64,000 nt of DNA from assembly GCA_034520365.1 (NCBI GenBank), contig JAXHNP010000002.1, forward strand, positions 1 to 64,000, given 5' to 3'. The stretch's first letter is position 1. Every line of letters starts with the position of its first letter. Shown here piece by piece: positions 207 through 21,704 of this stretch. Position numbers and translations under genes: made by a program. Under the pieces are notes generated by a model, which saw only the letters and a list, made by a program, of their open reading frames with translations, ran no database searches and was not told the DNA's origin. The stretch is from Desulfobacterales bacterium. GTDB lineage: Bacteria; Desulfobacterota; Desulfobacteria; Desulfobacterales; Desulfosalsimonadaceae.

Positions 207-1127
207 TTAGAAAGATTGCGGCCATTGCGCCGCATAAAGTGACATTTCCCGGCAGGTTTTGTAGAAGTCGGTAACCATTTCCAGGATAATCTGACCGGCC
301 GGCTCAATAGCCTCCGCCTGGGCCACACTCTGCCCCGCGCTCCACAGATCCCGCCATTTTTTGGATCCAAGCTCCGGCTGCTCCTCGAAAGATTGGATGC
401 TCCGGGCAAGCCAGTTGGCCGGGTTGCCGGTTATTTTGTCCGTGCAGACGATGTCTTCCGGTCCTGCCTGGATCACGGCCTGCTTGTAGGCCTCTTGGGC
501 ACGGGATTCCAGGGTGGCCACCAGGCGCGTGCCGGTAATTACGGCACACGCCCCCAGACAGAGGGCGGCGGCCATCTGGGCGCCCGTGCTGATACCTCCC
601 GCCGCGATTACGGGCAGGCCGGTTTTTTGTTTGAGATAAGGGACCAAAACCATGGTCGGGGTTCGCCCGCCATGGCCGCCGGCGCCCGCGCCCACGGCAA
701 TAAGGCCGTCCAGGCCCCTGTCCCTTGCCCTGAGCCCCTGCTCCACGGTGACCACATCCGCGAAAACCTTTCCCCCGCTGGCATGGACCTCTTCCAGGAT
801 CGGCGAGGGATCGCCCAGTGAAGTGATAAAAAACCGAACCCCTGTCTCCAGGCAGATTTTGAGTTGTTTTTTCCACTCGAATTTTCCGGAAAGGTGGATG
901 TTCACACCAATGGGTTTATCTGTGAGTTCCCGGACTTTTCCCAGGGCGGCCTCAAGATCGGCAAGCGTGCGAAAGTTGGGCAGGGGGAGGGCGCCCAGGC
1001 CGCCGGCTGCGGAAACGGCGGCAGCCAGTTCTTCATAAGACACCAGAAACATCGGGGCCCCGATTAATGGGTAGTCGATCAAGAGCATGTCGGTAAATGC
1101 GGTTTTAACGGGCGGCGGATTTGTCAT
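207..1127 (-). CDS. Nitronate monooxygenase / FabK-like FMN oxidoreductase
   Basis: A TIM-barrel FMN enzyme of the nitropropane dioxygenase family, 306 residues and about full length. Visible marks are the N-terminal PLIGAPM segment, the glycine-rich GAGAGGHGG loop around residue 150 whose His is the usual catalytic residue of this family, and the C-terminal phosphate-binding part (AAGGIS, then GTRLVAT). The start codon overlaps the stop of the upstream ligase gene (TAATG), so the two are probably co-translated. Family members oxidise nitronates or reduce enoyl thioesters (FabK). In a cluster of acyl-CoA genes an enoyl-CoA reductase-like or redox accessory role is at least as likely as nitronate oxidation. 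It is the last gene of the minus-strand block. Confidence 0.85.
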   Translation of the reverse strand: MTNPPPVKTAFTDMLLIDYPLIGAPMFLVSYEELAAAVSAAGGLGALPLPNFRTLADLEAALGKVRELTDKPIGVNIHLSGKFEWKKQLKICLETGVRFFITSLGDPSPILEEVHASGGKVFADVVTVEQGLRARDRGLDGLIAVGAGAGGHGGRTPTMVLVPYLKQKTGLPVIAAGGISTGAQMAAALCLGACAVITGTRLVATLESRAQEAYKQAVIQAGPEDIVCTDKITGNPANWLARSIQSFEEQPELGSKKWRDLWSAGQSVAQAEAIEPAGQIILEMVTDFYKTCREMSLYAAQWPQSF

Positions 1128-2701
1128 TAGACTTTTCTTTCCTGCTCCTTCCAGTATTGATCCCGCATGGCCTTTTTATCCAGCTTGCCCAGATTGGTAA
1201 GCGGGATATGATCCCAGAATTCAATGGATTTCGGCGCTACCAGGCTGCCCTTACGTTCCTTGACAAAAGCGATAAGCTCTTTTTCGGTGGCGGATTTTTC
1301 CTCATACAGGACCACAATGGCCTTGACCGCCTCTCCCCATTTGTTGTCCGGCACACCGATGACGGCCGCATGTTTAACAGCCGGGTGGTCAAACAGGACA
1401 TCCTCTATTTCCCGCGGGAAGATGTTGAAACCGCCGCTGACCACCATGTCTTTCTTTCTGTCAACGATGTAGAGAAAGCCTTCATGATCCTGCCTGGCAA
1501 TGTCGCCTGTATAGAGCCAGCCATCTTTAAGGGTCTGCTGTGTGGCTTCCGGGTTTTTCAGGTATCCGTGCATGACATTGGCACATTTGACCACGATTTC
1601 GCCGGGTTCGCCAGGGGGCGCGGGGTTGCCCTGATCATCGAGAAGGCGGATTTTCGCGTGGAAGGTCGGTCGACCCGCTGAGCTGAAAACCTCCCGCTCC
1701 CGCTCCGGGTCCGAGATCACGTGGTCGCTCCGGGACATGACGCTGAAGCACATGGGGGCCTCGGTTTGCCCGAAAAGCTGGGTGAGGATCGGGCCGAACC
1801 GGTTTACCGCCTGTTTTAAGCGTTCGGGCGCAATGGGGGCGGCACCGTAAATGATGTTTTGCAGGGAGTCGAGCCCGTAGTTCGGCAGATCCGGGAAATC
1901 CAGGAGACCATAGATCATGGTGGGGACCATGAAAGTGGAGGTGATTCCTTCCGCTTCCACTTTTTCAAGAAATAGCGAAGGTTCGAAATGGTCAAAAATA
2001 ACCGCCCGGCCCTTGCGCAGCAGCACGGGCAGAAGCAGACAGCCACCCGCGTGCGTCAGCGGGGTCAGATAGGCGAAGACCTCCTCCCATCCGAAACCGA
2101 ACTCCAGCATCTCCATGAGTACGGTGTAGACCCAGGCCCGGTGGGAAAGCATAACTCCTTTAGGTTTGCCTGTGGTGCCTCCGGTAAAGTAAATGCCGAC
2201 CAGGTCCTCCGGGTCCAGATCCACGGGCTGCGGGTTGGGGGCGTGATTTTGCATCAGGCTTTGCAGGTGGTGGTGGCCCTCCGGAAGCGAGGAAGTGTCG
2301 TCGCAGATGCAGACGAACTGCGTGACGGTTTCCAGGGCGGGAATCATTTCCGCAACCCGGGAGGTCATTTTTTCATGATAGATCAGCGTCGTGCACTCGG
2401 CATGATTCATCATGTAGATATGGTCAAAGTTGCCAAGAAGCACTGCCAGGGGAACCCTGATGGCGCCGGTTTTGGCAACCGCGTATTCGCAGAAGACATA
2501 CTCCGGGCGATTGGGCATCAGAAAGGCCACCTTGTCGCCCTTCCGGATACCTAGTTCCTGCTGGAGGCCCTGGGCCAGGCAAAGGGCGTTCTCACCCATC
2601 TGTCGGTAGGTATAGGACTGGTCATGATAGGTTAGCGCCACGTGTTCCCCGAAATGGTGGACGCATCGATCATATAAGTCGGGTATGGTCTGGGAAATCA
2701 T
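1127..2701 (-). CDS. AMP-forming acyl-CoA synthetase (fatty-acid type)
   Basis: A 524-residue member of the ANL adenylate-forming superfamily. It activates a carboxylic acid to the acyl-adenylate and then the CoA thioester. The P-loop-like motif YFTGGTTGKPKG lies near residue 170, YGAAPIAPE near 290, the YTGD motif near 390 and the DRKKDMVVSGGFNIFP hinge near 405; the C-terminal catalytic Lys lies in the LGKLDKKAMR segment. The start is supported by GAAGGAG about 5 bases upstream. The stop overlaps the start of the FMN enzyme gene. It is the second ligase in this cluster; the other ends at 5080. The sequence does not show which acid it activates. Confidence 0.9.
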   Translation of the reverse strand: MISQTIPDLYDRCVHHFGEHVALTYHDQSYTYRQMGENALCLAQGLQQELGIRKGDKVAFLMPNRPEYVFCEYAVAKTGAIRVPLAVLLGNFDHIYMMNHAECTTLIYHEKMTSRVAEMIPALETVTQFVCICDDTSSLPEGHHHLQSLMQNHAPNPQPVDLDPEDLVGIYFTGGTTGKPKGVMLSHRAWVYTVLMEMLEFGFGWEEVFAYLTPLTHAGGCLLLPVLLRKGRAVIFDHFEPSLFLEKVEAEGITSTFMVPTMIYGLLDFPDLPNYGLDSLQNIIYGAAPIAPERLKQAVNRFGPILTQLFGQTEAPMCFSVMSRSDHVISDPEREREVFSSAGRPTFHAKIRLLDDQGNPAPPGEPGEIVVKCANVMHGYLKNPEATQQTLKDGWLYTGDIARQDHEGFLYIVDRKKDMVVSGGFNIFPREIEDVLFDHPAVKHAAVIGVPDNKWGEAVKAIVVLYEEKSATEKELIAFVKERKGSLVAPKSIEFWDHIPLTNLGKLDKKAMRDQYWKEQERKV

Positions 2702-2887
2702 ACTTGCTCCTTCAACACTCCTGTTTTGCGGGCAGGGCCGTTAAGTAGTGCCCGAACGAAAACCAGGATTTTTTGTCAAGATCAAGGAAGGCGAAAATTT
2801 TAACCGCAGGCATACGCGAAGTATTCTGAGGATTAAAATTTGAGCCTGACACAGATATTGGCGAAAAAGACGGTTTTCGTTCAGGCA

Positions 2888-3337
2888 CTAAGCACGCATG
2901 TGAAACATCATGATGTAGTCAAAAGCCATTACCGCTTCATCTCTTTGATTCTTTACGGTATATCTCCAGGTTTGAACGCCGCGCCCCGGGTTTTTGGTTG
3001 GCTTCTGCTCCACAACCTCAACCTCCACCCGAATGGTGTCATGGATTTTTACCGGTGCCAGCATCTTCATGTTGTCCACTCCCAGCCAGGCAATGGCCGA
3101 GTCGCCGGCAAAATTCGCTGAACCCACCAGGCCCACGGCCAAAGCAAAGATAAGCGGGCCATGGACCAGCCTTTCCCCGAACTGGGTTTTAGCCGCATAC
3201 TCCTTGTCCATGTGCAGGGGATAAAAATCCATGGTAAGGCCGGCCCAATTGACCACATGGGTCTCGGTCACCGTAATGGCCCCGGTTGTGTAAACATCGC
3301 CGATTTTAAAGTCGTCGCCGTATTTGCTTGGTTGCAT
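2888..3337 (-). CDS. MaoC-like enoyl-CoA hydratase
   Basis: A single hot-dog domain protein of about 149 residues. The hydratase 2 motif is present as DFYPLHMDKEYA, with the Asp and His that act as the catalytic pair; the Asn between them in classical enzymes is Tyr here. The start at 3337 is chosen because GGGGAG lies 7-8 bases upstream and the family's conserved N-terminus begins here. An in-frame ATG at 3424 overlaps the stop of the upstream DUF35 gene (TGATG) and would add 29 unconserved residues. MaoC proteins hydrate 2-enoyl-CoA esters. Pairing with a DUF35 gene is typical of steroid side-chain hydratases (ChsH1/ChsH2), which is the likely arrangement here. Confidence 0.85.
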   Translation of the reverse strand: MQPSKYGDDFKIGDVYTTGAITVTETHVVNWAGLTMDFYPLHMDKEYAAKTQFGERLVHGPLIFALAVGLVGSANFAGDSAIAWLGVDNMKMLAPVKIHDTIRVEVEVVEQKPTKNPGRGVQTWRYTVKNQRDEAVMAFDYIMMFHMRA

Positions 3338-3423
3338 ATTCCATCTCCCCGCAGGTACTATATTGCCTGCTTTTTCCGTATTTGCCGGGAGTGCCCCCCG
3401 GGCCCGATTGGCTGCCGTCAACA

Positions 3424-3840
3424 TCAGCTCCCTGTTGCCGGCCGAAATTTGGGAAGCGTGAATTCCTCGCTTACCTTGTCAAATGTCACCTCCACCGGCA
3501 TGTCGCAATAGACCTCAGAGGGCTCGCAGGAAACGATGTTGCTCATCATCTGGACGCCCTCCTGCAGGCGGATAAGGGCCACAACAAAAGGCATCTCGTC
3601 CTGGAAGAACGAGGGCGCGTTGTTTTCAACCACCGTATACGAGTAAACAGTGCCTTTCCCGCTGGACTGGGCCCATTCCAGGTTATCGCTGAAACAATGG
3701 GGACAGACGATTCTGGGATAGAAAATAAACTTGGCGCAATCCGAGCATTTCTGGAGCATGAGTTTTTCTTCCCGCGTCCCGTCCCAAAAGGGCTGGGCCC
3801 ACGGGCTGACCACGGGCATGGGTTTTTTTGAAGCGTTCAT
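3424..3840 (-). CDS. DUF35 OB-fold / zinc-ribbon protein
   Basis: A 138-residue acyl-CoA-binding accessory protein. An N-terminal rubredoxin-like zinc ribbon (CSDC, then CPHC about 11 residues later) precedes an OB-fold domain. The start at 3840 is set by AAGGAG 7 bases upstream; a longer frame to 3903 has no such support. DUF35 proteins are not enzymes alone. They partner thiolases (BbsA with BbsB, PhlB with PhlC), MaoC hydratases (ChsH2 with ChsH1) or aldolases (with Ltp2). The TGATG overlap with the next gene suggests MaoC as partner. The cluster contains a second DUF35 domain fused to the protein encoded at 8070-9488. Confidence 0.88.
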   Translation of the reverse strand: MNASKKPMPVVSPWAQPFWDGTREEKLMLQKCSDCAKFIFYPRIVCPHCFSDNLEWAQSSGKGTVYSYTVVENNAPSFFQDEMPFVVALIRLQEGVQMMSNIVSCEPSEVYCDMPVEVTFDKVSEEFTLPKFRPATGS

Positions 3841-3911
3841 ATTTTTCTCCTTAACTGCTGCAATGATGATGGTTTGATCCTGATTTTCATTCGGGCACGA
3901 CAATAAATTGC

Positions 3912-5066
3912 TTAACCGGCCAGGCCGGTACTCAAAGCGATCCTTTGATTGAGCGACTCAAACGCGGTGGCGGCATTCATCAGCACGGTGATGTCCCTGA
4001 AGTAGCGCTGGATATCATATTCCATGGTGTAGCCGTAGCCCCCGAAAATCTGCATACTGTCCTGGACCGCCTGCTGGGCCGCCTCCAGTGCCGACCAGGC
4101 GGCAATGGCGCTTTCCTGCCGGATACTTTGCTTTTTTCCGGCTTTCCAGGCCGCCTTGAATGAAAGCAGCTCAGCAGCCTGGATTCCTTTTAGCATTTCA
4201 TTTATCATGCGCGATATCGCGGGGAATTTTCCGATGGAACGATTGAACTGCACCCGCTGGCGGGCATGTTCCAGGGTGGCATCATAAGCCCCTTTGGCGA
4301 TGCCCAGGGCTTCAAAAGCCGTTGAAAGCAGATACAGATCCCATACGGTGGACAACCGGTCCCCGGGCTTGCCAGCCGCTTTGCCGCCCAGCAGCCTGTC
4401 TGCAGATACCTTCAGGTCCCGGCACTCAACAGTGCAGGCCTTCAGGCCCTTGTATCCCATTCGTTCCGCGCCGGGCCGGCATTGAACCATTTTTGCGTCC
4501 AGAATCATGTAAACAACCGCCCCTGGTTCCGAATCCGGGGCGTCCTTCATTTCAACCGGCAGGAAAATGATATCCGCCTGATCCGCATTTTCCACATGAT
4601 CGATGGCACCGTTCACAACGAGCGTGTCCGGTTCCGAATCCCACTGCGCGCGGATGCCTTCTTCTCCTTTATCCGCCCCGTCGAAGCGCAGACCGATGCA
4701 AGCCAGCTGTTTGCCGCTGCAGAGCCCCGGCAGGAATTTTTTCTTTTGTTCTTCATCGCCGAGGTTTGAGAGCAGCATCCCGCCCAGGAGGGCGTTTGCG
4801 GCGTAACACCTGGCCAGCACCGGGTACCGGGAAGCGATTTCCGTCACAATCAGGCAGGCGGCTGTCAGGTTTTCGCCTTCCCCGCCGTATGTTTCCGCCG
4901 CTGTTAACCCGTTAAAGCCCAGGCGGCTCAGGTTGCGTAAAAGTTTTTTGGGATACTGCGCCGTGTCGTCCATGTCCCGGACGGTATCTTTTGCGCATTC
5001 CTTATTCACCCACTCATGAATCGCTTTTTTTATCATGGCGTCTTCGGAGGAAAAGCCGAAATCCAT
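3912..5066 (-). CDS. Divergent acyl-CoA dehydrogenase-like protein
   Basis: A 384-residue protein with the overall acyl-CoA dehydrogenase layout: N-terminal helical domain, middle beta domain and C-terminal helical domain with the FAD-contacting FGGYGYTMEY segment near residue 345. Two things are odd. The usual EGT motif carrying the catalytic Glu is replaced by NAATAF, and the alternative Glu position used by isovaleryl- and long-chain enzymes reads WDLYLL with no Glu. The usual FAD signature with GSD in the middle domain is also degenerate. It may be an inactive partner of a heteromeric dehydrogenase, as in mycobacterial steroid FadE pairs. The start has AAGGGAG upstream, and 13 bases separate it from the ligase gene before it. 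Confidence 0.85.
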   Translation of the reverse strand: MDFGFSSEDAMIKKAIHEWVNKECAKDTVRDMDDTAQYPKKLLRNLSRLGFNGLTAAETYGGEGENLTAACLIVTEIASRYPVLARCYAANALLGGMLLSNLGDEEQKKKFLPGLCSGKQLACIGLRFDGADKGEEGIRAQWDSEPDTLVVNGAIDHVENADQADIIFLPVEMKDAPDSEPGAVVYMILDAKMVQCRPGAERMGYKGLKACTVECRDLKVSADRLLGGKAAGKPGDRLSTVWDLYLLSTAFEALGIAKGAYDATLEHARQRVQFNRSIGKFPAISRMINEMLKGIQAAELLSFKAAWKAGKKQSIRQESAIAAWSALEAAQQAVQDSMQIFGGYGYTMEYDIQRYFRDITVLMNAATAFESLNQRIALSTGLAG

Positions 5067-5079
5067 AGCTATATCTCCC

Positions 5080-6789
5080 TTAATCGGTAAACAGTTTTTT
5101 AACTTCTCGTTTCAGGACTTTCTGCAATGGATTGCGGGGCAGATTTTCGACAATTTTAAGCTTTTCCGGCCATTTGTATTTTGCCAGGCCGTTTTCTTCC
5201 AGGTATTGCTTCAATGTTTCCATGGTTATTTCCTGTCCTTCGAAGGGAACTATTGCCACGCCTACCCGCTGCCCCAGGCGCTCATCCGGAAACCCGGCAA
5301 CCGCTACTTCTCTGACCGCCGGGTGTTTGGAAATAAATATTTCCACCTCTTCGGGACTGATGTTGTAGCCGCCCCGGATAATGAGATCTTTCAGTCTTCC
5401 TTGAAACAGCAGTTTTTCTTTGCGATCGCCTTCAATGGAGAAGAGATCGCCGGTTCGGTAAAACCCGTCCGCATCAAAAGATTTTGCGGTGAGTTCCGGC
5501 CGTTTCCAATATCCTGAAAACATGGTCGGTCCGGAAAAGCCCAATTCACCGATCTCTCCGGTTTCAGTTATTACCTCTCCGGTTCCAGGCTTTGTCAGCC
5601 GGCTTTTCATCCCGCCAATGACCTGGTGCGGAAGGTCAAAGTGGACGCCTTCGCCGCCGAAACGGGGGAAGTAGGTCGCCCGGTCCTCGGGCTTGGGGAA
5701 GAGTTTGGGGATACTGAAAAGCGCGACGCCTTCATTTGAGGCAAAGAAATTAACGATTCCGATGCTGCATTCCTCCTGGAAGAATTTGACCATCCAGGGT
5801 GCCAGCGGGGCAGAGCCGGAGGCCACCACCTCTACCTTGGACTGTTTTAAGGCGTTTACCCGCTGGGACTTGGCCAGCGTGTCCAAAAGGGCCGGGGGCA
5901 TGAGCGTATAGTAGATCTCTTCTTTAATCAGTTGCGGGAAGAAGCTCTCCATGTCAAAAGGATGATGGAGAACGAATTTGCCGCCGGTCAGAACCCAGGG
6001 GATGAGCAATCCCCCGATCCCCGCCATATTGATAACCGGAAATGTCCCATGGATTGCAGCGCCGTTGAACAGCTGCGTTCCTTCGACCACGACGCGGGCT
6101 ATGGAAATCCATTGGTTATGGGTTCGGGGCACGCCTTTGGGTTCCGCCTCGGTCCCTGAGGTCCAGCACAGAGTAAAAACCTCGTTGGGCCCGCTTTGCC
6201 CATCCTTCAGTTCATCCTGCCGGGATGCGGCGTCGGCTCTCCGCTCAATCAGGCGCTCAAAGTGCAAAGCCTCTTCCGGCGCCTCGAGCCCGACGATAAT
6301 GATGTGCTCCAGGCTGGGATTTTTTTCCCGGACCCGGCGCATCATGTCCATGTGATCATAATCGTGGAAAGATGCAAGCGTAACTATTGCCCTGGCATTG
6401 GTCATTTCCAGTGCGTGATTGAGTTCATGGGCACGGGCCTGCATGGGCAGCGGGCTGGCTATGGCGCCGATCCGGCCTGCGGCAAAAAGGGTCAGAAGGG
6501 ACTCGACAACATTGGGCAGCTGGATGAGGATGACATCATCATGGCCGATACCCAGATCCTTGAGGTTCAGGGCCAGGCTGTCCACATTCTGCGCCAGCTC
6601 CCTGTGGGTCAATTGCCTTGGCTGCGCTCCCAGTCCGATTATCTGCTCTTTATTGTAGGGATCGACCAGGGCGGTGTGCTCCGGTGTATTGGCAGCGTTT
6701 TGAAGCAGAATGTCCATGATGCTTTCTTTACCCCACCACCCGTTCTTTGTGTACGTGTCAATTTGGCTTTGGCTTATAGGCGTCATCAT
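5080..6789 (-). CDS. AMP-forming ligase, dihydroxybenzoate-AMP-ligase-like
   Basis: A 569-residue ANL-superfamily ligase. The nucleotide-binding motif is CWTSGTEAEPKGVPRTH near residue 215, with the RTH ending typical of aryl-acid-AMP ligases such as EntE. FYRTGDLFSI and IRGGYNISPEEVE mark the hinge, and the C-terminal Lys lies in NPLQKVLKRE. It should adenylate a carboxylic acid and probably transfer it to CoA. Its resemblance to aryl-acid ligases suggests a cyclic or aromatic substrate, but this is weak evidence. Two adjacent ATG codons occur at the start and no clear ribosome site is visible upstream. Confidence 0.87.
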   Translation of the reverse strand: MMTPISQSQIDTYTKNGWWGKESIMDILLQNAANTPEHTALVDPYNKEQIIGLGAQPRQLTHRELAQNVDSLALNLKDLGIGHDDVILIQLPNVVESLLTLFAAGRIGAIASPLPMQARAHELNHALEMTNARAIVTLASFHDYDHMDMMRRVREKNPSLEHIIIVGLEAPEEALHFERLIERRADAASRQDELKDGQSGPNEVFTLCWTSGTEAEPKGVPRTHNQWISIARVVVEGTQLFNGAAIHGTFPVINMAGIGGLLIPWVLTGGKFVLHHPFDMESFFPQLIKEEIYYTLMPPALLDTLAKSQRVNALKQSKVEVVASGSAPLAPWMVKFFQEECSIGIVNFFASNEGVALFSIPKLFPKPEDRATYFPRFGGEGVHFDLPHQVIGGMKSRLTKPGTGEVITETGEIGELGFSGPTMFSGYWKRPELTAKSFDADGFYRTGDLFSIEGDRKEKLLFQGRLKDLIIRGGYNISPEEVEIFISKHPAVREVAVAGFPDERLGQRVGVAIVPFEGQEITMETLKQYLEENGLAKYKWPEKLKIVENLPRNPLQKVLKREVKKLFTD

Positions 6790-6844
6790 TTTATCTTTCT
6801 ATCTTTTTATCTTTGTTTTTAAGGGCGTATGATTAATGGATGAT

Positions 6845-8047
6845 TCAGATCCCGGCTATATTGACACTGATGGTGCATCCCCCCGGGGTTCCGCCCAGGT
6901 TGTGGGTCAAACCCAGTTTGGGGGCCTCTACCTGCCGTTTATCGGCTTTTCCCTGAAGCTGTTTGTATACTTCATACATCATCCGGAGACCGGAGGCCCC
7001 GATGGGATGGCCGAAACACTTGAGGCCGCCGTCCGTATTCACCGGCAGTTTCCCGTCGAGTTCAAAGGTGCCGCTCTCGATGTCTTTTTTTGCCTGTCCG
7101 CGGGGGGAAAATTGCAGATCCTCATAAATTACCGCCTCGGTTATGGAAAAGCAGTCGTGGACTTCTGCGAGGCTGATTTCCTCGCGGGGCTTTGTTATGC
7201 CGGCCTCGGTATAAGCCGCCTGGCCGGCGCGATAGGTCTCTTTGACCATGGTCCAGTCGTGCTCCGGATTCATGTACCCCTCAGACGGCCCCACGGCGAT
7301 CTGCATGGCTTTTAAATAAACAGGATCTTTCCGGTATTCTTTGGCTTTCTCGGCGGGCACCACAATGGCCGCGGCTGCTCCGTCGCTGACCCCGCAGCAG
7401 TCCAGAAGCCCCAGGGGCCATGCCACCATGGGAGCTTTGAGGACCTGCTCCTCTGTGATTTCCATTTTGAAATGGGCGTTCGGGGCCAACAGGCCGTTTT
7501 TATGGTTTTTTACCATAATCCGGGCCAGCATCTTGCGTCCCTCTTCAGGAGAAAGACCGTATTTTTCGAAGTATTTGACCGCCATCATGGCAAAATGCCC
7601 GGGAGCCGTAAAATTTCGGCTCCTGAACGTATTGGGTGCGGTTGACACGAGGCCCATGGCCAGGTCATCGGTGGGCAGCCCGCTTACCCCGGAGTCCTTG
7701 AGTTTTTCGGCACCGATTGCCAGGGCTACGTCATAAGCCCCTGAGGCAACGGCGTATACAGCGTTGCGCAGCGCATCCGAGGCGGTGGCGCACATGTTTT
7801 CCACCCGGGTAATCGGCTTGTAATCGAGTTTCAGCGTGGTGGCCAGGGGCTGACTGGGGGCGGGCAGATTGGACCAGTAAGAGCCGATCCATACGGCCTC
7901 CATATCTTTCTCTGCCATGCCCGAATCGGCAAAAGCTTCATAGACCGCTTCAATAACCATATCATCAAAGCTCATGTCCCAGTTCTCACCAAATTTTGTA
8001 CAGCCCATGCCTATAATGGCGACTTTATCCTTGATGCTGCCCATCAT
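6845..8047 (-). CDS. Thiolase (SCP-x / acetyl-CoA acetyltransferase type)
   Basis: A 400-residue thiolase. The nucleophilic Cys lies in VENMCATASDAL near residue 87, followed by EVHDCFSITEA near 300 and KCFGHPIGASG near 345, which supply the His and second Cys. It cleaves a 3-oxoacyl-CoA with CoA, or runs the reverse condensation. The gene directly upstream encodes an HMG-CoA-synthase-like/DUF35 fusion, an arrangement like the archaeal thiolase-DUF35-HMG-CoA synthase complex. Two ATGs are adjacent; the second (8044) has better spacing from AAGGGGG. All catalytic residues appear present, so this is the likely active C-C cleaving subunit. Confidence 0.9.
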   Translation of the reverse strand: MMGSIKDKVAIIGMGCTKFGENWDMSFDDMVIEAVYEAFADSGMAEKDMEAVWIGSYWSNLPAPSQPLATTLKLDYKPITRVENMCATASDALRNAVYAVASGAYDVALAIGAEKLKDSGVSGLPTDDLAMGLVSTAPNTFRSRNFTAPGHFAMMAVKYFEKYGLSPEEGRKMLARIMVKNHKNGLLAPNAHFKMEITEEQVLKAPMVAWPLGLLDCCGVSDGAAAAIVVPAEKAKEYRKDPVYLKAMQIAVGPSEGYMNPEHDWTMVKETYRAGQAAYTEAGITKPREEISLAEVHDCFSITEAVIYEDLQFSPRGQAKKDIESGTFELDGKLPVNTDGGLKCFGHPIGASGLRMMYEVYKQLQGKADKRQVEAPKLGLTHNLGGTPGGCTISVNIAGI

Positions 8048-8069
8048 GTCCCCCTTCTGTAGATGGTCT

Positions 8070-9488
8070 TTATTTTTTTAAGGGTTTGGCTTTCCACCAG
8101 TAGACCTGGATGCCCTCGGTGAGCCGGAATTTTCTGAATGTCGGCACCACTGGCATCCCGATATGAACCGCATCCGGCTCCCTGTCCGTAATATCGAGCA
8201 TCACCCTGCCACCGGCTTCAAAATCCACGGCAGCCAGGGTTGCCGGCGGGTCGGGCGTAACAGCCAGGAAGTCATGGGAGAAAGTGGTAATTTGGCCTTT
8301 CTGATCGGCGAAGGAATAATACTCAAAATCATCTTTGGTCCTGCAGTTCATGCAGATTCGCTGCACCGGATATTGAATCGTGCCGCAGTTTCGGCATTTG
8401 GACCCGTTAAAGGCCATGCCGCACTTCTGGTCCCGGTAGAGCGCCACGCTTGATGCGGCTTCCTGTTTTGGCCGCTTGGCAGGCTCCATTTCGACCAGGT
8501 TTTTCCAGCGCAGGTATTTTTGATAAGTTACTGCCTGCCGGTCCTGGAGCAGCGTTTGCATTTTCTGGCTCTTTTGGAAACCCGCAATCGCATCGGTGGT
8601 TTTTAATGAAAAGACATCACAGCCGTCTCCGTACGCGGCGAAAAGAATCCGCTCACCCGGTGCGGCATTTTCCAGGGCGGCGCAGAGGAGCAGAAAGGGA
8701 TGGGCGGCGCCTGTAAATCCGACGGCGCCGAAAAGCGGATCCTGCGCCTGTTGCTGCTTGAAATCAAAGCCTAATGTCTTCAGGGGTTTTTTCAGGTAGC
8801 CGGGGTTGGCGGCCGAAATAACGAGTTTTTGAAACTCGGCCGGCTGCATATGCCATTTTTCCAGGGCTTCCCTGATGCCGGTGGTCATGGTTCGGATGTA
8901 TCCCGAATCCCGGGCAAATCGTTCGTCCCAATCCTGCAGGTAGGGGCTGCCGGAGACGCGGTAGGTGTCATAAATGTCCTCGTAGCTGCTATGGGTCTGC
9001 TCTATGGCGGCAATCACATCCTGGCTGCCGACAGCCAGGGCGGCCGCCCCGTCGCCCAAACTCATTTCCTTGTTCCCGAAGGGCTTGGCCAGCCGGGTGT
9101 CGGATGCCACCACCAGCGCCGGATCGTCTTTGCCATGGCATTGCGCCATGGCCTGTAACAGCCCGTTTGTTCCGGCCCTGAGGGAACCGGTGATGTCGCT
9201 GGTAAAGGTTTGTTTTTCCAAATCCAGGGCTGTGGCCACAAAAACGGCATTCTGCTTTTCGGCATACGGCAGGGAAGTGGAGGACAGGTAAAGCGCGCCC
9301 GTTTTTTTTGGGGGCATGTCTGCCAGACAGTTCCGGCAGGCTTCCACCGCCATGGTAACCGAATCCTCGTCAAAATTGGCCACTGCTTTCTCTCCGGGCG
9401 GCCTGCCCCCCCCCCAGAAAGAACCGATTGCTGCTCTGTCTAGTTTGTAAAACGGAATATAGACGCCATAGCCGGTGATACCAATCAT
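8070..9488 (-). CDS. HMG-CoA-synthase-like protein fused to DUF35
   Basis: About 472 residues. Residues 1-330 have the HMG-CoA synthase fold (opening MIGITGYGVYIPFYKL), and the C-terminal part is a DUF35 zinc ribbon (CGMAFNGSKCRNCG, then CMNC) plus OB fold. Aligning by eye with archaeal HMG-CoA synthases, the Glu region reads STSLPYA instead of SESHPYA, the Cys region reads SLRAGT instead of ACKAGT, and the His-x-Pro region reads AANPGYL. All three catalytic residues thus appear lost. It may act as a scaffold or acyl-CoA-binding subunit for the neighbouring thiolase. The start at 9488 is chosen because the conserved fold begins there and GGGGGGA precedes it; a longer frame to 9785 has no such support. 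Confidence 0.85.
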   Translation of the reverse strand: MIGITGYGVYIPFYKLDRAAIGSFWGGGRPPGEKAVANFDEDSVTMAVEACRNCLADMPPKKTGALYLSSTSLPYAEKQNAVFVATALDLEKQTFTSDITGSLRAGTNGLLQAMAQCHGKDDPALVVASDTRLAKPFGNKEMSLGDGAAALAVGSQDVIAAIEQTHSSYEDIYDTYRVSGSPYLQDWDERFARDSGYIRTMTTGIREALEKWHMQPAEFQKLVISAANPGYLKKPLKTLGFDFKQQQAQDPLFGAVGFTGAAHPFLLLCAALENAAPGERILFAAYGDGCDVFSLKTTDAIAGFQKSQKMQTLLQDRQAVTYQKYLRWKNLVEMEPAKRPKQEAASSVALYRDQKCGMAFNGSKCRNCGTIQYPVQRICMNCRTKDDFEYYSFADQKGQITTFSHDFLAVTPDPPATLAAVDFEAGGRVMLDITDREPDAVHIGMPVVPTFRKFRLTEGIQVYWWKAKPLKK

Positions 9489-9553
9489 TGTATCCCCCCT
9501 TTTTTTACGATACCTTGCCTGCGTGTATGCGCAGGGACCCGGGTTGCCTCCCG

Positions 9554-10699
9554 TTAAAGCCCCAGTAGCTTGGTGATGATGTTTTTTTGAATCTGGCTCG
9601 TGCCGCCGCCTATGGCCAGCACGGGAATATCTCTGAATAATCGCTGGGTTACATTGTCCGGGGCCTGCCCCTTTTCCCCAAGGATCCGCATGCCGGTCCA
9701 GGCAATTTTTTTGCCTGCCTCGGCACAGTAGTATTTGGTCATGGATGTTTCCTTCACACAGTCGATGCCCTGGGATTCGAGCCATCCGGCACGGTATGCC
9801 AGGCTTCTGGCGGCTTCCAGCCGGGTTGCCATCTCAACGGTTTCATGCTCCACATCCTGATATTTCCCAGGGGTACGGGAGTTCCGGCTCCGCCACCGGA
9901 CCGTCTGGATCACCTCTTTTAGGATAGTCTCTGAAATGCCTATGGCGCAGGCAGACAGAACCAGACGTTCATTGTTCAGCAGGCGCATTACCTGTTCCCA
10001 TCCCCTGTTCAGGCATTCTTCGCCCCCCAGGATATTGCCGGGATCAACCTTGACGTTCTTGTAAAACACTTCACAGGTATCCGAACCCTTGTAGCCGATT
10101 TTTTTAATCGGGGTTGCCTGGTAGCCCGGAGTTTTGGTATCCACCAAAAAGGATGTGATTCCGCCATACCGGTCAGCATCGGTGCGGGTGTTGGTTACCG
10201 CGATATCAGAGACGCTGGCGCCGGAAATAAAAACCTTGCTGCCGTTGATGCAATACCGGCCATCGATTTTTTCAGCGGATGTCTGGATATTTGCGGCATC
10301 GGAGCCGGCATCCGGTTCTGTCAGGGCGAAGCAGAATTTCATCTCCCCGTTGGCCAGCCGGGGCAAATAGGTATCCTGCTGTTCCCGGTTTCCATTGACT
10401 TTTAAAATATTGTTTCCGTAGAGGAGAACATCGCCCGCCGTCCAGGCCAGCACCGGCAGAGCTTTTGAGATCTCCTCAAAAAAAACCATCAGGTCGATAA
10501 CGCTTCCGTCAGTCCCGCCGTATTTTTCCGGGATATTGATTTTCCAGAACCCTTCCTCGCCCAGTTTCCGCATCAGCTCATGCGGAAAAAGATCCTGTTG
10601 GTCAACTTCCGCGGCTACCTGGGGGGGGATTTCCTTTTGGACAAAAGCAGCGGTTTTTTCTTTGAGTTCGATTTGGCGTTTGCTCAGGAGATGCTCCAC
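9554..10699 (-). CDS. Acyl-CoA dehydrogenase, isovaleryl/long-chain-like
   Basis: A 381-residue flavoprotein dehydrogenase that should oxidise an acyl-CoA to the 2-enoyl-CoA. The FAD signature FALTEPDAGSD lies near residue 125. The C-terminal motif is IGGGTSQIQ, with Gly where medium-chain enzymes have the catalytic Glu. A Glu in LLNNERLVLSA near residue 240 matches the alternative base of isovaleryl- and long-chain enzymes, so the protein looks active. The start is a GTG at 10699 with a strong AAGGAGG 6-7 bases upstream; the frame open beyond it to 10924 overlaps the SDR gene and is unlikely to be translated. Confidence 0.88.
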   Translation of the reverse strand: MEHLLSKRQIELKEKTAAFVQKEIPPQVAAEVDQQDLFPHELMRKLGEEGFWKINIPEKYGGTDGSVIDLMVFFEEISKALPVLAWTAGDVLLYGNNILKVNGNREQQDTYLPRLANGEMKFCFALTEPDAGSDAANIQTSAEKIDGRYCINGSKVFISGASVSDIAVTNTRTDADRYGGITSFLVDTKTPGYQATPIKKIGYKGSDTCEVFYKNVKVDPGNILGGEECLNRGWEQVMRLLNNERLVLSACAIGISETILKEVIQTVRWRSRNSRTPGKYQDVEHETVEMATRLEAARSLAYRAGWLESQGIDCVKETSMTKYYCAEAGKKIAWTGMRILGEKGQAPDNVTQRLFRDIPVLAIGGGTSQIQKNIITKLLGL

Positions 10700-10812
10700 G
10701 CTCCCCTCCTTATTTTTTTCCGACTTTAAGTGGTCCGGTAAAAGGCGTTTTTCCCGCTGCGGCGTTGTTTTTGCGGGCTGGCGCCTGCCGGGCTGTGATG
10801 TTTTTTCTGTTC

Positions 10813-11577
10813 TTAAAAAAAGGCTCCGCCGTTTAAAACCAATACATGGCCGGTCATATAGTTGGCTGCAGAGGAAGTAAGGTATAGCGCTGACTGGGCG
10901 ATCTCTTCCGGGGTGGCCACGCACTTGAGCGGCGTATTCTTGTACTCGGCCTCCATCAATTTGTCATTGCTCCACAGGGCCTTGCTGAATCCCGTCTTGA
11001 CGATGCGGGGCGCTATGGCATTGACCCGCACGTTGTAGGGTCCAAGTTCCATGGCCATCTGTTTGGTCAGCATGTTGATGCCGGCCTTGCTGACACAATA
11101 GGGTCCCAGTCCTTCAGCCGGGCTGACGCCGCCGGCCGAGGAGATGTTGACGATATGTCCGGACTGCTGTTTTTGCATCAGTTTTCCCACCCGCTTGCTG
11201 AGCCGGAAATAACCCTTGAGGTTGGTGTCCACAATGTGATCAAACATGTCATCTTCGGTATCGACAATATCTCCCATGCCGGGGTTTGTCGCCGCGTTGT
11301 TGATCAGTACGTCAATACGCCCGCACTCGGAAATTACGGTTTCCACCAGGTTTTCCAGGTCTTCCAGCTTTTTCAGGTGCGCCGGTACATAGAGGCACTT
11401 GGCCCCCTTGGCCTCAATTTCCTTGGCGACTTCGGCCAGCGTCTCGGCCTTGCGGCTGCATATGACGATATCCGCCCCCGCATCAGCGAAAGTCAGCGCA
11501 GCGGCCTTGCCGATGCCCCTGCTGCCGCCGGTGACCAGAACAACTTTTCCTTTTTGCGATAAAAATGAACAATCCAT
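10813..11577 (-). CDS. Short-chain dehydrogenase/reductase
   Basis: A 254-residue classical SDR. The Rossmann motif TGGSRGIG is at the N-terminus, NNAATNPG (the NNAG equivalent) near residue 90, the active-site Ser in NISSAGG, and Tyr-x3-Lys as YCVSK near residue 158. It probably oxidises a 3-hydroxyacyl-CoA or an alicyclic alcohol with NAD(P). AGGGAG lies before the start, and 28 bases separate it from the HpaB-like gene upstream. In this cluster it would supply the 3-oxoacyl-CoA for the thiolase, which is inference from context. Confidence 0.9.
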   Translation of the reverse strand: MDCSFLSQKGKVVLVTGGSRGIGKAAALTFADAGADIVICSRKAETLAEVAKEIEAKGAKCLYVPAHLKKLEDLENLVETVISECGRIDVLINNAATNPGMGDIVDTEDDMFDHIVDTNLKGYFRLSKRVGKLMQKQQSGHIVNISSAGGVSPAEGLGPYCVSKAGINMLTKQMAMELGPYNVRVNAIAPRIVKTGFSKALWSNDKLMEAEYKNTPLKCVATPEEIAQSALYLTSSAANYMTGHVLVLNGGAFF

Positions 11578-11605
11578 GTCAAACTCCCTGTTAATGTGGT
11601 CCGAA

Positions 11606-13036
11606 TTATTTTACCTGAGCCATTTCTTCGACAATTTTCCGGCAGTCCTTAAGCACCTTCTGGCCCTCCATGAAAATGGTCATTCGCTCAGCCATGGGGG
11701 AGCCCTCGCCATGCAGACAGATCACTTCCAGCTCCGCGGTGGTGATCCGGCGGATCAGGTCGAACATCCGCAGGCGGTTTTCCGTGGAGACATCCTTGTT
11801 GGCGCTCAGGTATTTCTCGATATCGTCGTGCAGGTCCGGATGCGTGTAATCCTGATAGGTCGGTGCGGTAACCAGCAGGCCGCCGGCCAGGTCCTGGATC
11901 GCCTTGACCACTTCATGGTAGTTGTGTGCGAAATGGTATTTGGCCATGTTGGTTGAAATGGTATTGGGCACGGCAATGTCGCCCCGCATTTCAAAGTCAT
12001 AACAGGCTGTTTTGGCAAGAGACTTTAAGGTTTCCAGGTAAATTACCAGGTCGGTGAGCTTTTCTCTGACATGGGGCGCCTTGGTAACGCCATTGTACTC
12101 GGCAATGGCGGCAGCGGCCCCCACCAGCTGCTCCGAGAGGGGTATCCGGTAGGAGCACCCGGTTCTTCGGTGAAGCAGGGCGAAGCTGTAAACCATCGGG
12201 CCGGTCAGTTTCCATTCCCCGCACAGAAAGACCCTTTCCCAGGGCACGAAAACATCATCAAAGATGATCAGGGAATCGGTATGCACCCTTACCGGACGCG
12301 TATTCGGGAACTCCAGTGAGCTGTGATGCGATTTGAACGGGCGGCAGACCTGGCGGATCCCTTTGGCGTTGACCGGGATGGCAAAAGCCAGGGCATAATC
12401 CTTGTCCGCCTCTGTCATGGCATGACAGGGGATCACAAAAATTTCGTTGCAGTAGGCGGCGCCGGTAATGTGGATTTTGGCGCCCCTCACCACGATGCCG
12501 TCATCGTTTTTCTCCACGACGCGCACGTTATAATCCGGATGTTTCTGCCCGGGATCCGATGGCCTGAGCATGCGATTGCCCTTGACATCGGTCACCGCCG
12601 CGCATGTCGCGGTGTCTTCCTTTTTAAGCTTGTCCCGATAGTTGTTGATCCGGTCGATATAGTCCTGGTTGCCGCTCATGTGGGCGGCAATGCTGATGGC
12701 ATTCAAGGCATCAGCTCCGATATCATGAGCCAGGGGGATATAGCCGTCCCCCAGTTCGGTCGCCTTGACGATCAGTTCATGCGCTTTCAATAGATCGTCG
12801 GCATTCTGCGGTTTGTAGTAATATCGGCTCACCGGCTCCTTGAGAACCGGGTCCTCGACTATGGCAAGATCTTTGTATTGCGGATCTTCAGCCAATTCAT
12901 AATCAAGCGCCATGAGGTCGACGCAGACTTTCAGGTCCGGATGGGTGGCCACGTTTTTGATTTTCTCACCTTTATAGTAAACCACCCGTCCATCATTTAA
13001 ACTTTCCCTGTATTGCTCCGCTGAAATTAATCCCAT
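11606..13036 (-). CDS. HpaB / 4-hydroxybutyryl-CoA dehydratase-family protein without the FeS cysteines
   Basis: A 476-residue protein with the HpaB_N and HpaB domains, the fold of flavin-dependent 4-hydroxyphenylacetate hydroxylases and of 4-hydroxybutyryl-CoA dehydratase (AbfD). In AbfD a [4Fe-4S] cluster is held by Cys99, Cys103, His292 and Cys299. Here residues 99-107 read YIPLAHDIG with no Cys, and the later site reads LLHRRTGC (His about 289, Cys about 294, spacing five instead of seven). The cluster site therefore seems absent. The protein may be a flavin-only dehydratase, isomerase or dehydrogenase on an acyl-CoA. The start at 13036 follows GAGGAG; a frame open upstream to 13147 has no such support. 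Confidence 0.85.
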   Translation of the reverse strand: MGLISAEQYRESLNDGRVVYYKGEKIKNVATHPDLKVCVDLMALDYELAEDPQYKDLAIVEDPVLKEPVSRYYYKPQNADDLLKAHELIVKATELGDGYIPLAHDIGADALNAISIAAHMSGNQDYIDRINNYRDKLKKEDTATCAAVTDVKGNRMLRPSDPGQKHPDYNVRVVEKNDDGIVVRGAKIHITGAAYCNEIFVIPCHAMTEADKDYALAFAIPVNAKGIRQVCRPFKSHHSSLEFPNTRPVRVHTDSLIIFDDVFVPWERVFLCGEWKLTGPMVYSFALLHRRTGCSYRIPLSEQLVGAAAAIAEYNGVTKAPHVREKLTDLVIYLETLKSLAKTACYDFEMRGDIAVPNTISTNMAKYHFAHNYHEVVKAIQDLAGGLLVTAPTYQDYTHPDLHDDIEKYLSANKDVSTENRLRMFDLIRRITTAELEVICLHGEGSPMAERMTIFMEGQKVLKDCRKIVEEMAQVK

Positions 13037-13237
13037 GCTGTTTGCTCCTCGTCTCTGGGTTCGGCGCCGAAACGGAACCCGTTTCCTGGGTCCGTATCTT
13101 TCCTGATCTCGGGGTCGTTTGAAATTTCCGGATTTTCGTTCCGGCACCAGTTAAACTTGTTATCGTCGGCCCTGCCATTGCCGAAGGTTTCCTGCATTCG
13201 TTTGGACAGGGCCGTTTGGATCAGTCCGGAAAACCCG

Positions 13238-14857
13238 CTACCAGGTTCTTTTCCGGGGCAGGCCACGGTGATAATGGGGGAAAATTTCCTCTTCATGATA
13301 AGTGCCCATCATTTCATCAACCGTCATGACGGCGCAGAGGCCGGCACCGTCAACACCGCCGCCCCACATGCGTTCGCCATACTGGTCGCCGACAAAGTAG
13401 AGGTTTTCCACCCACGGGGATTTCAAGGGCGGCCGATCTTTTCCAACCGGGCGCCAGTCTCCGTAAGCCCGGTCGCAAGGCGTCCACATCCAGAACTCGA
13501 CATCCTCCTGCCAGGAAGGCCAGAATTTTTTAAAGAAGTTTTCGCAGAACTCGGTCAGTCTTTTCACGTTGGCGGGGTTGCGCATTTCGTGGCCCAACTG
13601 CGGCAGGGAGAAGCAGAAGTCTCTTTTGCCTTCCGGGGCCCGGCCCGGGGTATCGCTCAGGCTTGGCCGGGAAATGCTGTCTTTTGCGCAGGAGGCCATG
13701 TTCCACATGACGACATCCATTGCACCGCCTTCAAATCCTTCGTATTCGCTGATGCAGGCCGGCATGAAAGTGAAGCTTCGCTCATCGATGCCCTTTTCCG
13801 CCCATATATCCCGCTTCAAGCCGATCATAGCCGAGAGCAGACCCGGGTTCCAGAAACGTTTGTGCACGCTGTTGATCCATTTCTGATCAAAGTGGCGCGG
13901 GTGAATGACGCTGTGTATGGCCATGGGCGGTACATTGCAGATCACTTTGTCCGCCTTGATGGTCTCAAACCCGTCGCCTTTTCGCACAACCACGCCCCGG
14001 ACAATTTCGTTTTCAATAATTGTCTGGACCACCGGCGTATTGCGCCAGACCTCCCCGCCTTTCGCATTCAGGCATTCTTCAAAAGCCAGCGGGATAGCGG
14101 TGATGCCGGGCTGGGAGATGGTGGCCACGGAGCCGTCCACCAGATTCATTTTGATGTCGCCGGCAATGGCCTGATATCCCAGAAAATCACCGGCGGGTGT
14201 AATGGAGGGAACGTTGTTGGCGGTCTGGGAGCCGATCAGGTTTTTGATCCAGTCATAGGCTTCCTGGTGCATGTTGCGGTCCTCAAGCCATTTTTGCAGG
14301 GGATAGTCCATCAATTTCGGCAGCGCGCCCAGATCCGTTGTTGCCATGTCCCGCAGCTGCTGCATGGTGGCTTTAAAGCCTTCGTCAGACATCCAGGGAT
14401 ATTTTTGTTTTTTTTCCACCTGATAGGCTTTGCGTTTCATGTAATCCACATAGGCGAACCCTGTATTGACCGGCATATCGACAGGGACGGACAGGAAATC
14501 CAGGAGGCAGCGGATTCGGGATTTGTTCCCCCAGAATAAGCCGTGCCCGCAGTCATTGGTGTAGCCGTCAAAGAGGCCTTTTTCAAAAATTTCTTCAAGG
14601 GTTGGCGTCCCCGGGGCGGTATAAACCCAGGTGCTGTTCATTTCCAGGGCGGATCGCAAGCCCTGGGCATCCAGCTCCTGTCCGTCCACCGTCACTTTAT
14701 CCCCCTTGCCGACGAAAGAAAGCGTGCGCCCGCCGATAAAGGGTGCTTTTTCCAGAACCAGAACTTTCTGATTGTGCTCCTTGGCCAAAAGCGCTGCTGC
14801 CCCCATACCGCCAACTCCGGAACCGATAACAATAACATCGTACTTGGTGTTTGCCAT
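13238..14857 (-). CDS. FAD-dependent oxidoreductase, phytoene-desaturase-like
   Basis: A 539-residue amine-oxidase/phytoene-desaturase-type flavoprotein. The N-terminal dinucleotide motif VIVIGSGVGGMGAAALLA is clear, and the C-terminal NLYFVGDQYG segment fits the second FAD-binding motif of the family. The start at 14857 follows AGGAGG with 4 bases between; an ATG 11 codons earlier is less likely. Family members desaturate or isomerise hydrophobic carbon chains or rings. It is the first gene of the acyl-CoA block, so it may open the pathway by oxidising a cyclic or isoprenoid substrate, which is inference only. The 200 bases to the next gene are non-coding. Confidence 0.87.
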   Translation of the reverse strand: MANTKYDVIVIGSGVGGMGAAALLAKEHNQKVLVLEKAPFIGGRTLSFVGKGDKVTVDGQELDAQGLRSALEMNSTWVYTAPGTPTLEEIFEKGLFDGYTNDCGHGLFWGNKSRIRCLLDFLSVPVDMPVNTGFAYVDYMKRKAYQVEKKQKYPWMSDEGFKATMQQLRDMATTDLGALPKLMDYPLQKWLEDRNMHQEAYDWIKNLIGSQTANNVPSITPAGDFLGYQAIAGDIKMNLVDGSVATISQPGITAIPLAFEECLNAKGGEVWRNTPVVQTIIENEIVRGVVVRKGDGFETIKADKVICNVPPMAIHSVIHPRHFDQKWINSVHKRFWNPGLLSAMIGLKRDIWAEKGIDERSFTFMPACISEYEGFEGGAMDVVMWNMASCAKDSISRPSLSDTPGRAPEGKRDFCFSLPQLGHEMRNPANVKRLTEFCENFFKKFWPSWQEDVEFWMWTPCDRAYGDWRPVGKDRPPLKSPWVENLYFVGDQYGERMWGGGVDGAGLCAVMTVDEMMGTYHEEEIFPHYHRGLPRKRTW

Positions 14858-15282
14858 GTGGCCTCCTTTTTTATATTTGAAATTATCCAATGGAAAGTCT
14901 GGATACTTGTTTGCAAGCTGTGTGCCATGTGTAAAAATAACTTAAAATCAGATAGTTGATTTTTTTGGGGAATTGTCTTTCGAGCTGATGCGCAATATGT
15001 TGTGCGGCCGCTTCAACATGTTGTTTTTATGGGCAGGCGCGTTAAAAACGTCTACTATCGCCTGATGTTTGGCGGGAAGGAAGCCCTGCAGCCGGGGTTC
15101 GTTTTTTCGTTCCTGAGCATTTTCGGGACTCATCAAGACTGACAATAACGAGGGTCTTTGGTTGTCGGGGGCGCGGCATTGCGGTAAAGAATTTCAGTGG
15201 GCTTGCACCCGGCACCTTCCGAGGCAGGAAGTGTGCCCGGCTCTGGAGGGAAAACCTTGATGGGGGGCTGGAGGTAGCTCGG
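14858..15282. other. 425-base stretch without a supported gene
   Basis: The gap between the first gene of the minus-strand acyl-CoA block and the ADP-forming synthetase stub. It must hold the promoter of the minus-strand block, but I cannot pick a convincing -35/-10 pair. Short open frames on both strands have no recognisable product and no good ribosome sites. It may contain degraded remains of the gene whose start survives at 15283. Confidence 0.5.
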
Positions 15283-15456: not shown

Positions 15457-15606
15457 TTTCCTTCCTCAAGTTCCTATTCCTCATATAATGCGACATCGGG
15501 AAGAATGCCGAAGGGCATGTGCTTGAAATTATGAATTTTTTTAATGCCAAGCGTTATTGTCTATCATAGGATTTTTCTATTAACAATCAAGATTTCATTA
15601 TGTTTA

Positions 15607-15620
15607 CTTGGTCCGACCCC
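15607..15620 (+). repeat. Left copy of a 14-bp inverted repeat bounding the accessory patch
   Basis: CTTGGTCCGACCCC at 15607-15620 recurs in inverted orientation at 18686-18699 with one mismatch. The two copies enclose the FG-GAP remnant, the J-domain gene and the toxin-antitoxin pair. They may be ends of a mobile or REP-like element; no transposase gene is present between them. Confidence 0.5.
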
Positions 15621-15683
15621 TACCCCTATGCCTACAAAGAATTATCGACATTCGGCTTATTAAATCTTTCCAAAGGAGTACCT

Positions 15684-21671: not shown

Positions 21672-21704
21672 ACATCAATTTGTTTGACAAGATAATATTT
21701 CTCC

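Follow-up and report, generated by a model that had tools for sequence, protein, structure and literature searches.

Which reaction sequence, and which substrate, does the acyl-CoA gene block at the start of contig JAXHNP010000002.1 (C2) of a Desulfobacterales bacterium (assembly GCA_034520365.1) serve? The window analysed here comprises bases 1-64000 of this contig, taken from a genome of 4.33 Mb in 8 contigs that is 99.4% complete. The genome carries dsrA above its cut-off, and the best explanation is that the source bacterium is sulfate-reducing. Twelve minus-strand genes occupy the first 15 kb of the window, read from position 14857 down to 207 with short gaps between them. Our preferred answer, which we hold with about even confidence, is that they would form a sigma-54-controlled operon that degrades, anaerobically and via CoA thioesters, an acid that is hydrophobic, beta-branched and probably alicyclic, of terpenoid or steroid type. 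In anoxic sediments terpenoids and steroids are persistent, and the anaerobic pathways known for them are few; a regulated operon recurring across several phyla of uncultured bacteria offers defined assay targets.

The components named in the original prediction are all present on the minus strand: two ligases, two proteins of the acyl-CoA dehydrogenase (ACAD) type, a MaoC-DUF35 pair, a thiolase with an HMG-CoA-synthase (HMGS)/DUF35 fusion, a short-chain dehydrogenase (SDR), an HpaB-fold protein and a phytoene-desaturase-like flavoprotein. The last gene of the predicted span, NPD, had been left unnamed. The features follow in the order in which they are read, all on the minus strand.

14912-14927, minus: sigma-54 (-24/-12) promoter-like site TGGCACACAGCTTGCA, 70 nt upstream of the FADox start
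13238-14857, minus: FADox, flavoprotein of the phytoene-desaturase/amine-oxidase superfamily, 539 amino acids (PF01593, 47.5 bits)
11606-13036, minus: HpaB/AbfD-fold flavoprotein without the AbfD Fe-S ligands (Pfam HpaB_N/HpaB)
10813-11577, minus: SDR (PF13561)
9554-10699, minus: ACAD1, acyl-CoA dehydrogenase with the helix-G Glu (isovaleryl-CoA-dehydrogenase-type base), GTG start
8070-9488, minus: HMGS-like/DUF35 fusion without the HMG-CoA-synthase catalytic residues
6845-8047, minus: thiolase with intact Cys, HDCF and GHP, partner of the HMGS-like/DUF35 fusion (PRK06157, 574 bits, cut-off 403)
5080-6789, minus: Lig2, AMP-binding acyl-CoA ligase (PF00501/PF13193)
3912-5066, minus: ACAD2, acyl-CoA dehydrogenase homologue without the canonical catalytic Glu
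3424-3840, minus: DUF35 protein, Cys4 zinc ribbon and OB fold (PF12172/PF01796)
2888-3337 (start possibly 3424), minus: MaoC hydratase (PF01575)
1127-2701, minus: Lig1, AMP-binding acyl-CoA ligase (PF00501/PF13193)
207-1127, minus: NPD, FMN nitronate-monooxygenase/FabK-like oxidoreductase (PF03060, 148.6 bits)
3-86, minus: probable N-terminus (28 codons) of a sigma-54 activator cut by the end of contig C8, from an open frame at the contig edge

A gene-neighbourhood search, as proposed with the original prediction, addressed whether this set recurs. An HpaB alignment scanned against 84,980 species genomes gave 64 loci, each titled as a metagenome-assembled genome: 21 close loci (L036-L056) with 64-87% identity, and 43 distant loci with 40-45%. 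The close loci are named Desulfobacterales, Desulfomonile, Desulfovirgula, SAR324, Clostridia, Syntrophomonadaceae, Spirochaetes and others, mostly after anaerobic lineages. L052-L054 are near copies of one another, and L036, L041, L050 and L055 are apparently the same records as G299, G293, G342 and G272. Using neighbour identity cut-offs that were set after the loci had been viewed, and a crude open reading frame (ORF) caller of which one pass missed genes that another recovered, we counted across the 21 close loci, many of them short, SDR in 18, FADox in 16, ACAD1 in 12, Thio2 (a thiolase-fold protein encoded on C8 in the source genome) in 11, MaoC, DUF35 and NPD in 10 each, FadB in 8, ACAD2 and Lig1 (at least 55% identity) in 7 each, the thiolase and the HMGS-DUF35 fusion in 4 each, and Lig2 in 1. 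Among the 14 close loci of at least 14 kb, SDR is found in all 14, ACAD1 in 12, FADox, MaoC, DUF35 and Thio2 in 10 each, NPD and FadB in 8 each, an ABC-transporter binding protein in 5, and the thiolase and fusion in 4 each. None of the 43 distant loci holds any block neighbour at the same cut-offs, and they yielded no functional clue (7 viewed, all 43 scored). Because the whole-protein family matches are strong and the neighbourhoods recur in other genomes, the gene set is more than chance. Searches of an open-access library returned no paper on it and no homologous cluster with an assigned substrate, let alone one that explains every gene. The combination is in this sense unrecognised, as predicted, but it is not unique.

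The genes of the block lie on one strand with little space between them, and the first is preceded by an exact sigma-54-type site; for these reasons the block looks like one sigma-54-controlled operon. The pattern TGGCACNNNNNTTGCW, which we take to be the consensus of the sigma-54 (-24/-12) element, matched once in the 64-kb window (14912-14927, minus strand), with 0.11 matches expected and a match in 11 of 100 shuffles. For the relatives, site weights and consensus were of our own choosing, shuffles preserved single-base content only, and first and internal genes were assigned by judgement from gene order in a subset of the possible upstream regions; scored in this way, a sigma-54-type site (best in 300 nt upstream, p<=0.017 against shuffles) precedes 13 of 15 first-gene regions and none of 8 internal ones. 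The two first-gene regions without a site are those of L040 HpaB and L055 SDR. This site pattern also speaks against several unrelated operons, the outcome that would have counted against the prediction. An alternative is that two modules are merely co-located: a FADox-HpaB-SDR-NPD core that has a transporter of its own, and a general-purpose module for branched acyl side chains, made up of ACAD, MaoC, DUF35, Thio2 and FadB. L038, L041 and L044 carry the core and ABC transporter genes and hold no MaoC, DUF35 or Thio2 within the fetched span, and L025 has the side-chain set with FADox, SDR and NPD and no HpaB. However, one promoter-like site precedes both modules in the window, and both occur together in L037, L042, L049, L050 and L051-L056; we regard mere co-location as quite unlikely.

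Position 1 of the window is also position 1 of the contig, so the block as visible here is incomplete. Its continuation was sought through Thio2: the protein of relative L052 has its best match in the source genome at C8:177088-178269 (73% identity), close to the end of this 181,440-base contig. The last 19 kb of C8 encode YCF48, MMPL, a metallo-beta-lactamase-fold protein, two HGD-D proteins, ligases, a 603-amino-acid ACAD, a FadB/FadJ-like protein (35% identical to L052 FadB), Thio2, and a minus-strand regulator that lacks its N-terminus. DUF1302 and DUF1329 are encoded just upstream. The 28 residues encoded on the minus strand at C2:3-86 suit the missing N-terminus of the regulator, and the leftover bases, two on C2 and one on C8, would give one codon if the contigs abut. 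No overlap of at least 10 bases joins the two contig ends. We infer that C8 and C2 adjoin as one island. Within the C8 end, a CoA ligase is split over two overlapping frames at C8:169104-170767 (L129:7105-8768), a frameshift or sequencing error.

In Pfam, the L041 homologue of the C8 regulator shows GAF, Sigma54_activat and HTH_8 domains together with weak hits to TPR, which argues for a regulator of the sigma-54 activator type. A MalT-like identity, suggested by eye, was ruled out by the Pfam GAF, sigma-54 and Fis-type domains. A second sigma-54-type site lies at L129:11094, 208 nt before the Lig-FadB-Thio2 genes of C8; at the looser score used for it, again with weights of our own choosing and single-base shuffles, one further site appears in the window, at 40567. 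Both elements of a sigma-54 regulon, a -24/-12 element and a gene for an enhancer-binding activator, are thus represented in the predicted island.

The side-chain enzymes resemble those of steroid degradation. MaoC keeps its catalytic DxYPxH (Asp/His) in all 11 aligned rows, and the DUF35 protein keeps CxxC...CxxC (Cys4), likewise in 11 of 11. Thio2 has lost the nucleophilic Cys of thiolases and carries YDSY with the base Tyr in 13 of 13 rows, as expected of the aldolases Sal and Ltp2. The second residue, Cys in Sal and His with a distant Tyr in Ltp2, is Ser in all 13 rows. Compared to Shy-Sal of Comamonas and to ChsH1-ChsH2-Ltp2, the island shares the association of MaoC, DUF35 and a thiolase-fold protein with lost nucleophilic Cys and retained base Tyr. 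It differs in that Thio2 reads YDSY rather than YDCY or YDHF, in that MaoC and DUF35 are separate genes with a Cys4 zinc site instead of the Cys3His1 site of Shy, and in that no steroid-ring genes were recognised in the block. According to PMC12329534, Sal uses Tyr302 and Cys304 of YDCY, a Cys304Ser variant is inactive, and the Ltp2 motif is YDHF. The base Tyr supports a putative retro-aldolase role for Thio2, while the Ser is new and argues against simple equivalence with Sal or Ltp2. In the PDB, Thio2 matches the thiolase 4u4e best (204 bits), followed by lipid-transfer types (154 and 147 bits) and BbsB (133 bits).

The two acyl-CoA dehydrogenases recall the heteromeric (alpha2beta2) steroid acyl-CoA dehydrogenases, in which one subunit has and one lacks the catalytic Glu. 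ACAD1 has the helix-G Glu in 12 of 12 rows, and ACAD2 of the window lacks both canonical Glu residues. Three of eight ACAD2-labelled homologue rows (L052, L053, L054) possess the helix-G Glu, and a catalytic/non-catalytic pair is therefore likely in some clusters only.

The second carbon-carbon bond-cleaving candidate is the thiolase with its HMGS-like/DUF35 partner. Aligned with 1tvz and 6esq, the fusion has its HMGS catalytic Glu, Cys and His replaced, the window residues being T, L and S; all three are absent in 6 of 6 readable rows, and a seventh row has Q and T at the Cys and Glu positions. The fusion exists as predicted, but its HMGS part is no HMG-CoA synthase. The block thiolase keeps its nucleophilic Cys, HDCF and GHP in 7 of 7 rows and has the archaeal acetoacetyl-CoA thiolase 6esq_A as best PDB match. 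We interpret the unit as a 3-ketoacyl-CoA thiolase carried by a dead HMGS/DUF35 scaffold. Thiolase, HMGS-like and DUF35 parts with an intact thiolase Cys are shared with the archaeal 6esq complex and PhlACB (5m3k). In the block, by contrast, HMGS and DUF35 are fused, and the HMGS Cys, Glu and His are gone, as in PhlA.

The likeness to PhlACB raises the alternative of a biosynthetic cluster, in which thiolase, HMGS and DUF35 would act as a PhlACB-like acyltransferase, the product being an acylated ring compound or a polyketide-like molecule. The fusion finds its best PDB match in PhlA, where the HMGS Cys is missing as well, and desaturases, SDRs and ligases are known in biosynthesis too. We nevertheless consider this very improbable: genes for a FadB-like protein, MaoC and an aldolase homologue, together with transporter genes of the uptake type, are repeatedly found around the block, the set is spread over catabolically versatile anaerobe lineages, and a paralogous thiolase/HMGS-DUF35 pair is linked to MFE-2/SCP2 beta-oxidation domains. 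This paralogous unit, at C2:306532-312637 (L134:8533-14638), encodes a 910-amino-acid HMGS-DUF35-SDR-SCP2 fusion, a thiolase and a 701-amino-acid MFE-2-type hydratase-SDR-SCP2 protein, and forms an unusual multidomain beta-oxidation set in its own right. A third thiolase/HMGS-DUF35 pair lies at C8:150505-153170 (L130:8506-11171), on the C8 end that bears the second half of the island.

Two flavoproteins are encoded at the head of the block. The HpaB model (pLDDT 89.9) matches 4-hydroxybutyryl-CoA dehydratase best in the PDB (1u8v, TMq 0.90), and the protein is nearest to AbfD in fold and sequence, sharing its overall fold as predicted. The Fe-S ligands of AbfD, which we take to be C99, C103, H292 and C299, are mostly lost: the alignment has a gap opposite C99, D replaces C103 and Y replaces C299, and H292 alone is kept, in 22 of 22 close sequences. 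With three of four ligands gone, an Fe-S dehydratase was rejected. In a crude ligand test on 79 aligned HpaB-family sequences, the sole pass was a paralogue on contig C6 of the source genome, which served as positive control. This paralogue, at C6:1252173-1253630 (L131:12174-13631), lies beside acyl-CoA genes and a radical-SAM-like gene. A phenol hydroxylase was likewise rejected: the position of H142, presumably the active-site His of the Thermus HpaB phenol monooxygenase, is Ala in the window protein, and family matches placed no flavin-reductase family among the 12 block genes. Since the AbfD ligands and the Thermus His are both lost, neither known HpaB/AbfD chemistry is safe to assume. Our guess is a flavin-bound isomerase or dehydrogenase.

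The FADox model (AlphaFold, pLDDT 78.6) matches best an uncharacterised archaeal oxidoreductase (3ka7, TMq 0.63), followed by amine oxidases, Rab-GDI and carotenoid desaturases. CtmAB and the sterol delta-24 desaturase (compare the stigmasterol paper, PMC11061730) likewise place a flavoprotein of the phytoene-dehydrogenase group in an oxygen-independent pathway. In contrast to these, FADox lacks the covalent-flavin motif G-F-L/R-X-N/S-T/L-H-A (0 of 14 proteins), although an invariant Gly-His pair lies close to that region, and the window holds no gene for a second subunit. A genome-wide search for a second FADox-like subunit returned FADox itself and short fragments only. The missing motif thus places FADox outside that enzyme group, even if its pathway role may be similar. 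The best PDB matches of NPD are FabK-type enoyl-ACP (acyl carrier protein) reductases. Judged by their residues, at least three uncharacterised enzyme subfamilies are indicated, namely the Fe-S-free HpaB, the YDSY aldolase and the pseudo-HMGS/DUF35 thiolase partner, and automatic names such as HMG-CoA synthase, 4-hydroxyphenylacetate hydroxylase and thiolase would mislead.

Gene content, the promoter-like site, recurrence and the residues kept or lost are direct results, from which we infer the reactions, their order and the substrate. We postulate that Lig1 or Lig2 would make the CoA ester and that FADox, HpaB, SDR and NPD would remodel the ring through dehydrogenation, the shift of a double bond, interconversion of alcohol and ketone, and reduction of an enoyl group. 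An alpha,beta double bond would next be introduced by ACAD1, possibly assisted by ACAD2, and hydrated by MaoC. The beta-hydroxyacyl-CoA could then be split in a retro-aldol reaction by the Sal/Ltp2-like Thio2 of C8 on its DUF35 partner, and fragments giving 3-ketoacyl-CoA would be cleaved by the intact thiolase on the pseudo-HMGS/DUF35 scaffold.

For the substrate, the original prediction of an anaerobically degraded alicyclic, isoprenoid or steroid-like acid finds partial support in the acyl-CoA block with its MaoC-DUF35 and thiolase-DUF35 units, in the dsrA of the source genome and the mostly anaerobic lineage names of the close relatives, in the steroid-side-chain-like hydratase/aldolase set and in a cassette on C8. 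In this cassette, DUF1302, DUF1329, YCF48 and MMPL/RND form one run with the domains and order of AmeABCD, which PMC6394551 and PMC4109377 describe in monoterpene degraders (in the former as DUF1302-DUF1329-YCF48-MMPL type). The likeness to AmeABCD of Castellaniella and to the Nanopod cluster is one of gene types and order, and the C8 cassette is tied to the operon by proximity only. As the same cassette type is the Nanopod of benzene degraders, with gene types also linked to phenanthrene (PMC13101534, in part), it points to an apolar substrate and not to a compound class. Among the closest descriptions, beside the steroid side-chain hydratase-aldolases and the monoterpene degraders, is that of lss/lrc of Syntrophobacteraceae LiM6 for anaerobic limonene breakdown (PMC12583861), in which an HMGS-superfamily enzyme is proposed to cleave at a tertiary carbon. 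Compared by description, the route proposed here would likewise be an anaerobic terpenoid-type acyl-CoA route with an HMGS-superfamily protein, thiolases, an ACAD and dehydrogenases. The passage of that paper, however, mentions a glycyl radical enzyme and a ring hydrolase (LrcA) but neither an HpaB protein nor one of the phytoene-desaturase type.

An aromatic substrate accounts for some of the same genes. An aromatic, possibly methoxylated, phenylpropanoid-like acid would be taken up by the amino-acid-type ABC transporter and ligated to CoA, its side chain removed by hydratase and aldolase, and its ring processed via HpaB, FADox and NPD. In its favour, phenylpropanoid side chains are known to be removed by retro-aldol reactions, several relatives are flanked by ABC transporter genes that enclose a ligase gene, a URO-D/B12-binding methyltransferase-like (corrinoid) pair lies beside the G077 cluster, and C8 encodes the two HGD-D (double-cubane/benzoyl-CoA-reductase-type) proteins. 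The amino-acid-type transporter and ligase genes next to some relatives, and the corrinoid genes next to one, are also compatible with a smaller acid or an aromatic one more generally. On the other hand, no 6-oxocyclohex-1-ene-1-carbonyl-CoA hydrolase (Oah/BamA type) scored above cut-off in the source genome, which leaves a benzoyl-CoA-type route unsupported; HpaB lacks the aligned phenol-hydroxylase His; and DUF1302/DUF1329/MMPL suggest an apolar substrate, even if this argument is softened by the benzene and phenanthrene links. We judge an aromatic acid unlikely.

Several observations weigh against the proposed breakdown of a terpenoid- or steroid-type acid. Within the block we recognised no hydrolase that would open a ring. 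Thio2 carries Ser at the position of Cys304, which Sal requires (PMC12329534), and among solved structures Thio2 matches a thiolase of unstated function better than it does the lipid-transfer aldolase types. The helix-G Glu of the L052-L054 proteins makes a heteromeric ACAD uncertain. The AmeABCD-type cassette lies about 15 kb from Thio2, and an insensitive search did not find it near other close HpaB loci. The thiolase/HMGS-DUF35 pair occurs in only 4 of 21 close loci, and FADox is missing from five of them (L048, L051-L054), four of which span at least 20 kb. FADox at 45% identity or more was found in five of 297 phylum genomes, among them G174 and G077 without a close HpaB; G077 combines side-chain genes, SDR, NPD and FADox, and has a second FADox outside any such cluster. 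Finally, amino-acid-type ABC transporter genes adjoin 5 of the 14 long loci and suit a smaller, more polar acid.

A bolder version of the terpenoid or steroid reading, which we put forward as a doubtful conjecture, dispenses with a ring hydrolase. Here, ring bonds would be broken by CoA-dependent C-C lyases, namely the thiolase on its dead HMGS/DUF35 scaffold and the YDSY aldolase on DUF35, and the Fe-S-free HpaB would perform a redox-neutral isomerisation or a radical step without described counterpart. The whole would constitute a new route, independent of oxygen, for a terpenoid or steroid acid that is polycyclic or branched.

Further observations concern other loci and the surroundings of the block. 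At L025:13445-18306, URO-D and B12-binding proteins, DUF1329 and DUF1302 are encoded directly beside an HpaB-less FADox cluster. The source genome contains another acyl-CoA cluster with ACADs, MaoC, DUF35, thiolases and ligases at C3:778000-797900 (L133). On the plus strand of the window, the stretch 15600-17630 holds three ORFs in a row that overlap and differ in frame; one of them carries FG-GAP repeats, and together they look like one frameshifted surface or secreted protein. A radical-SAM protein (18860-20359) and PdxA-like and UvrA-like genes (20640-24560) follow on the same strand; identified by eye, they appear to be ordinary neighbours of the block.

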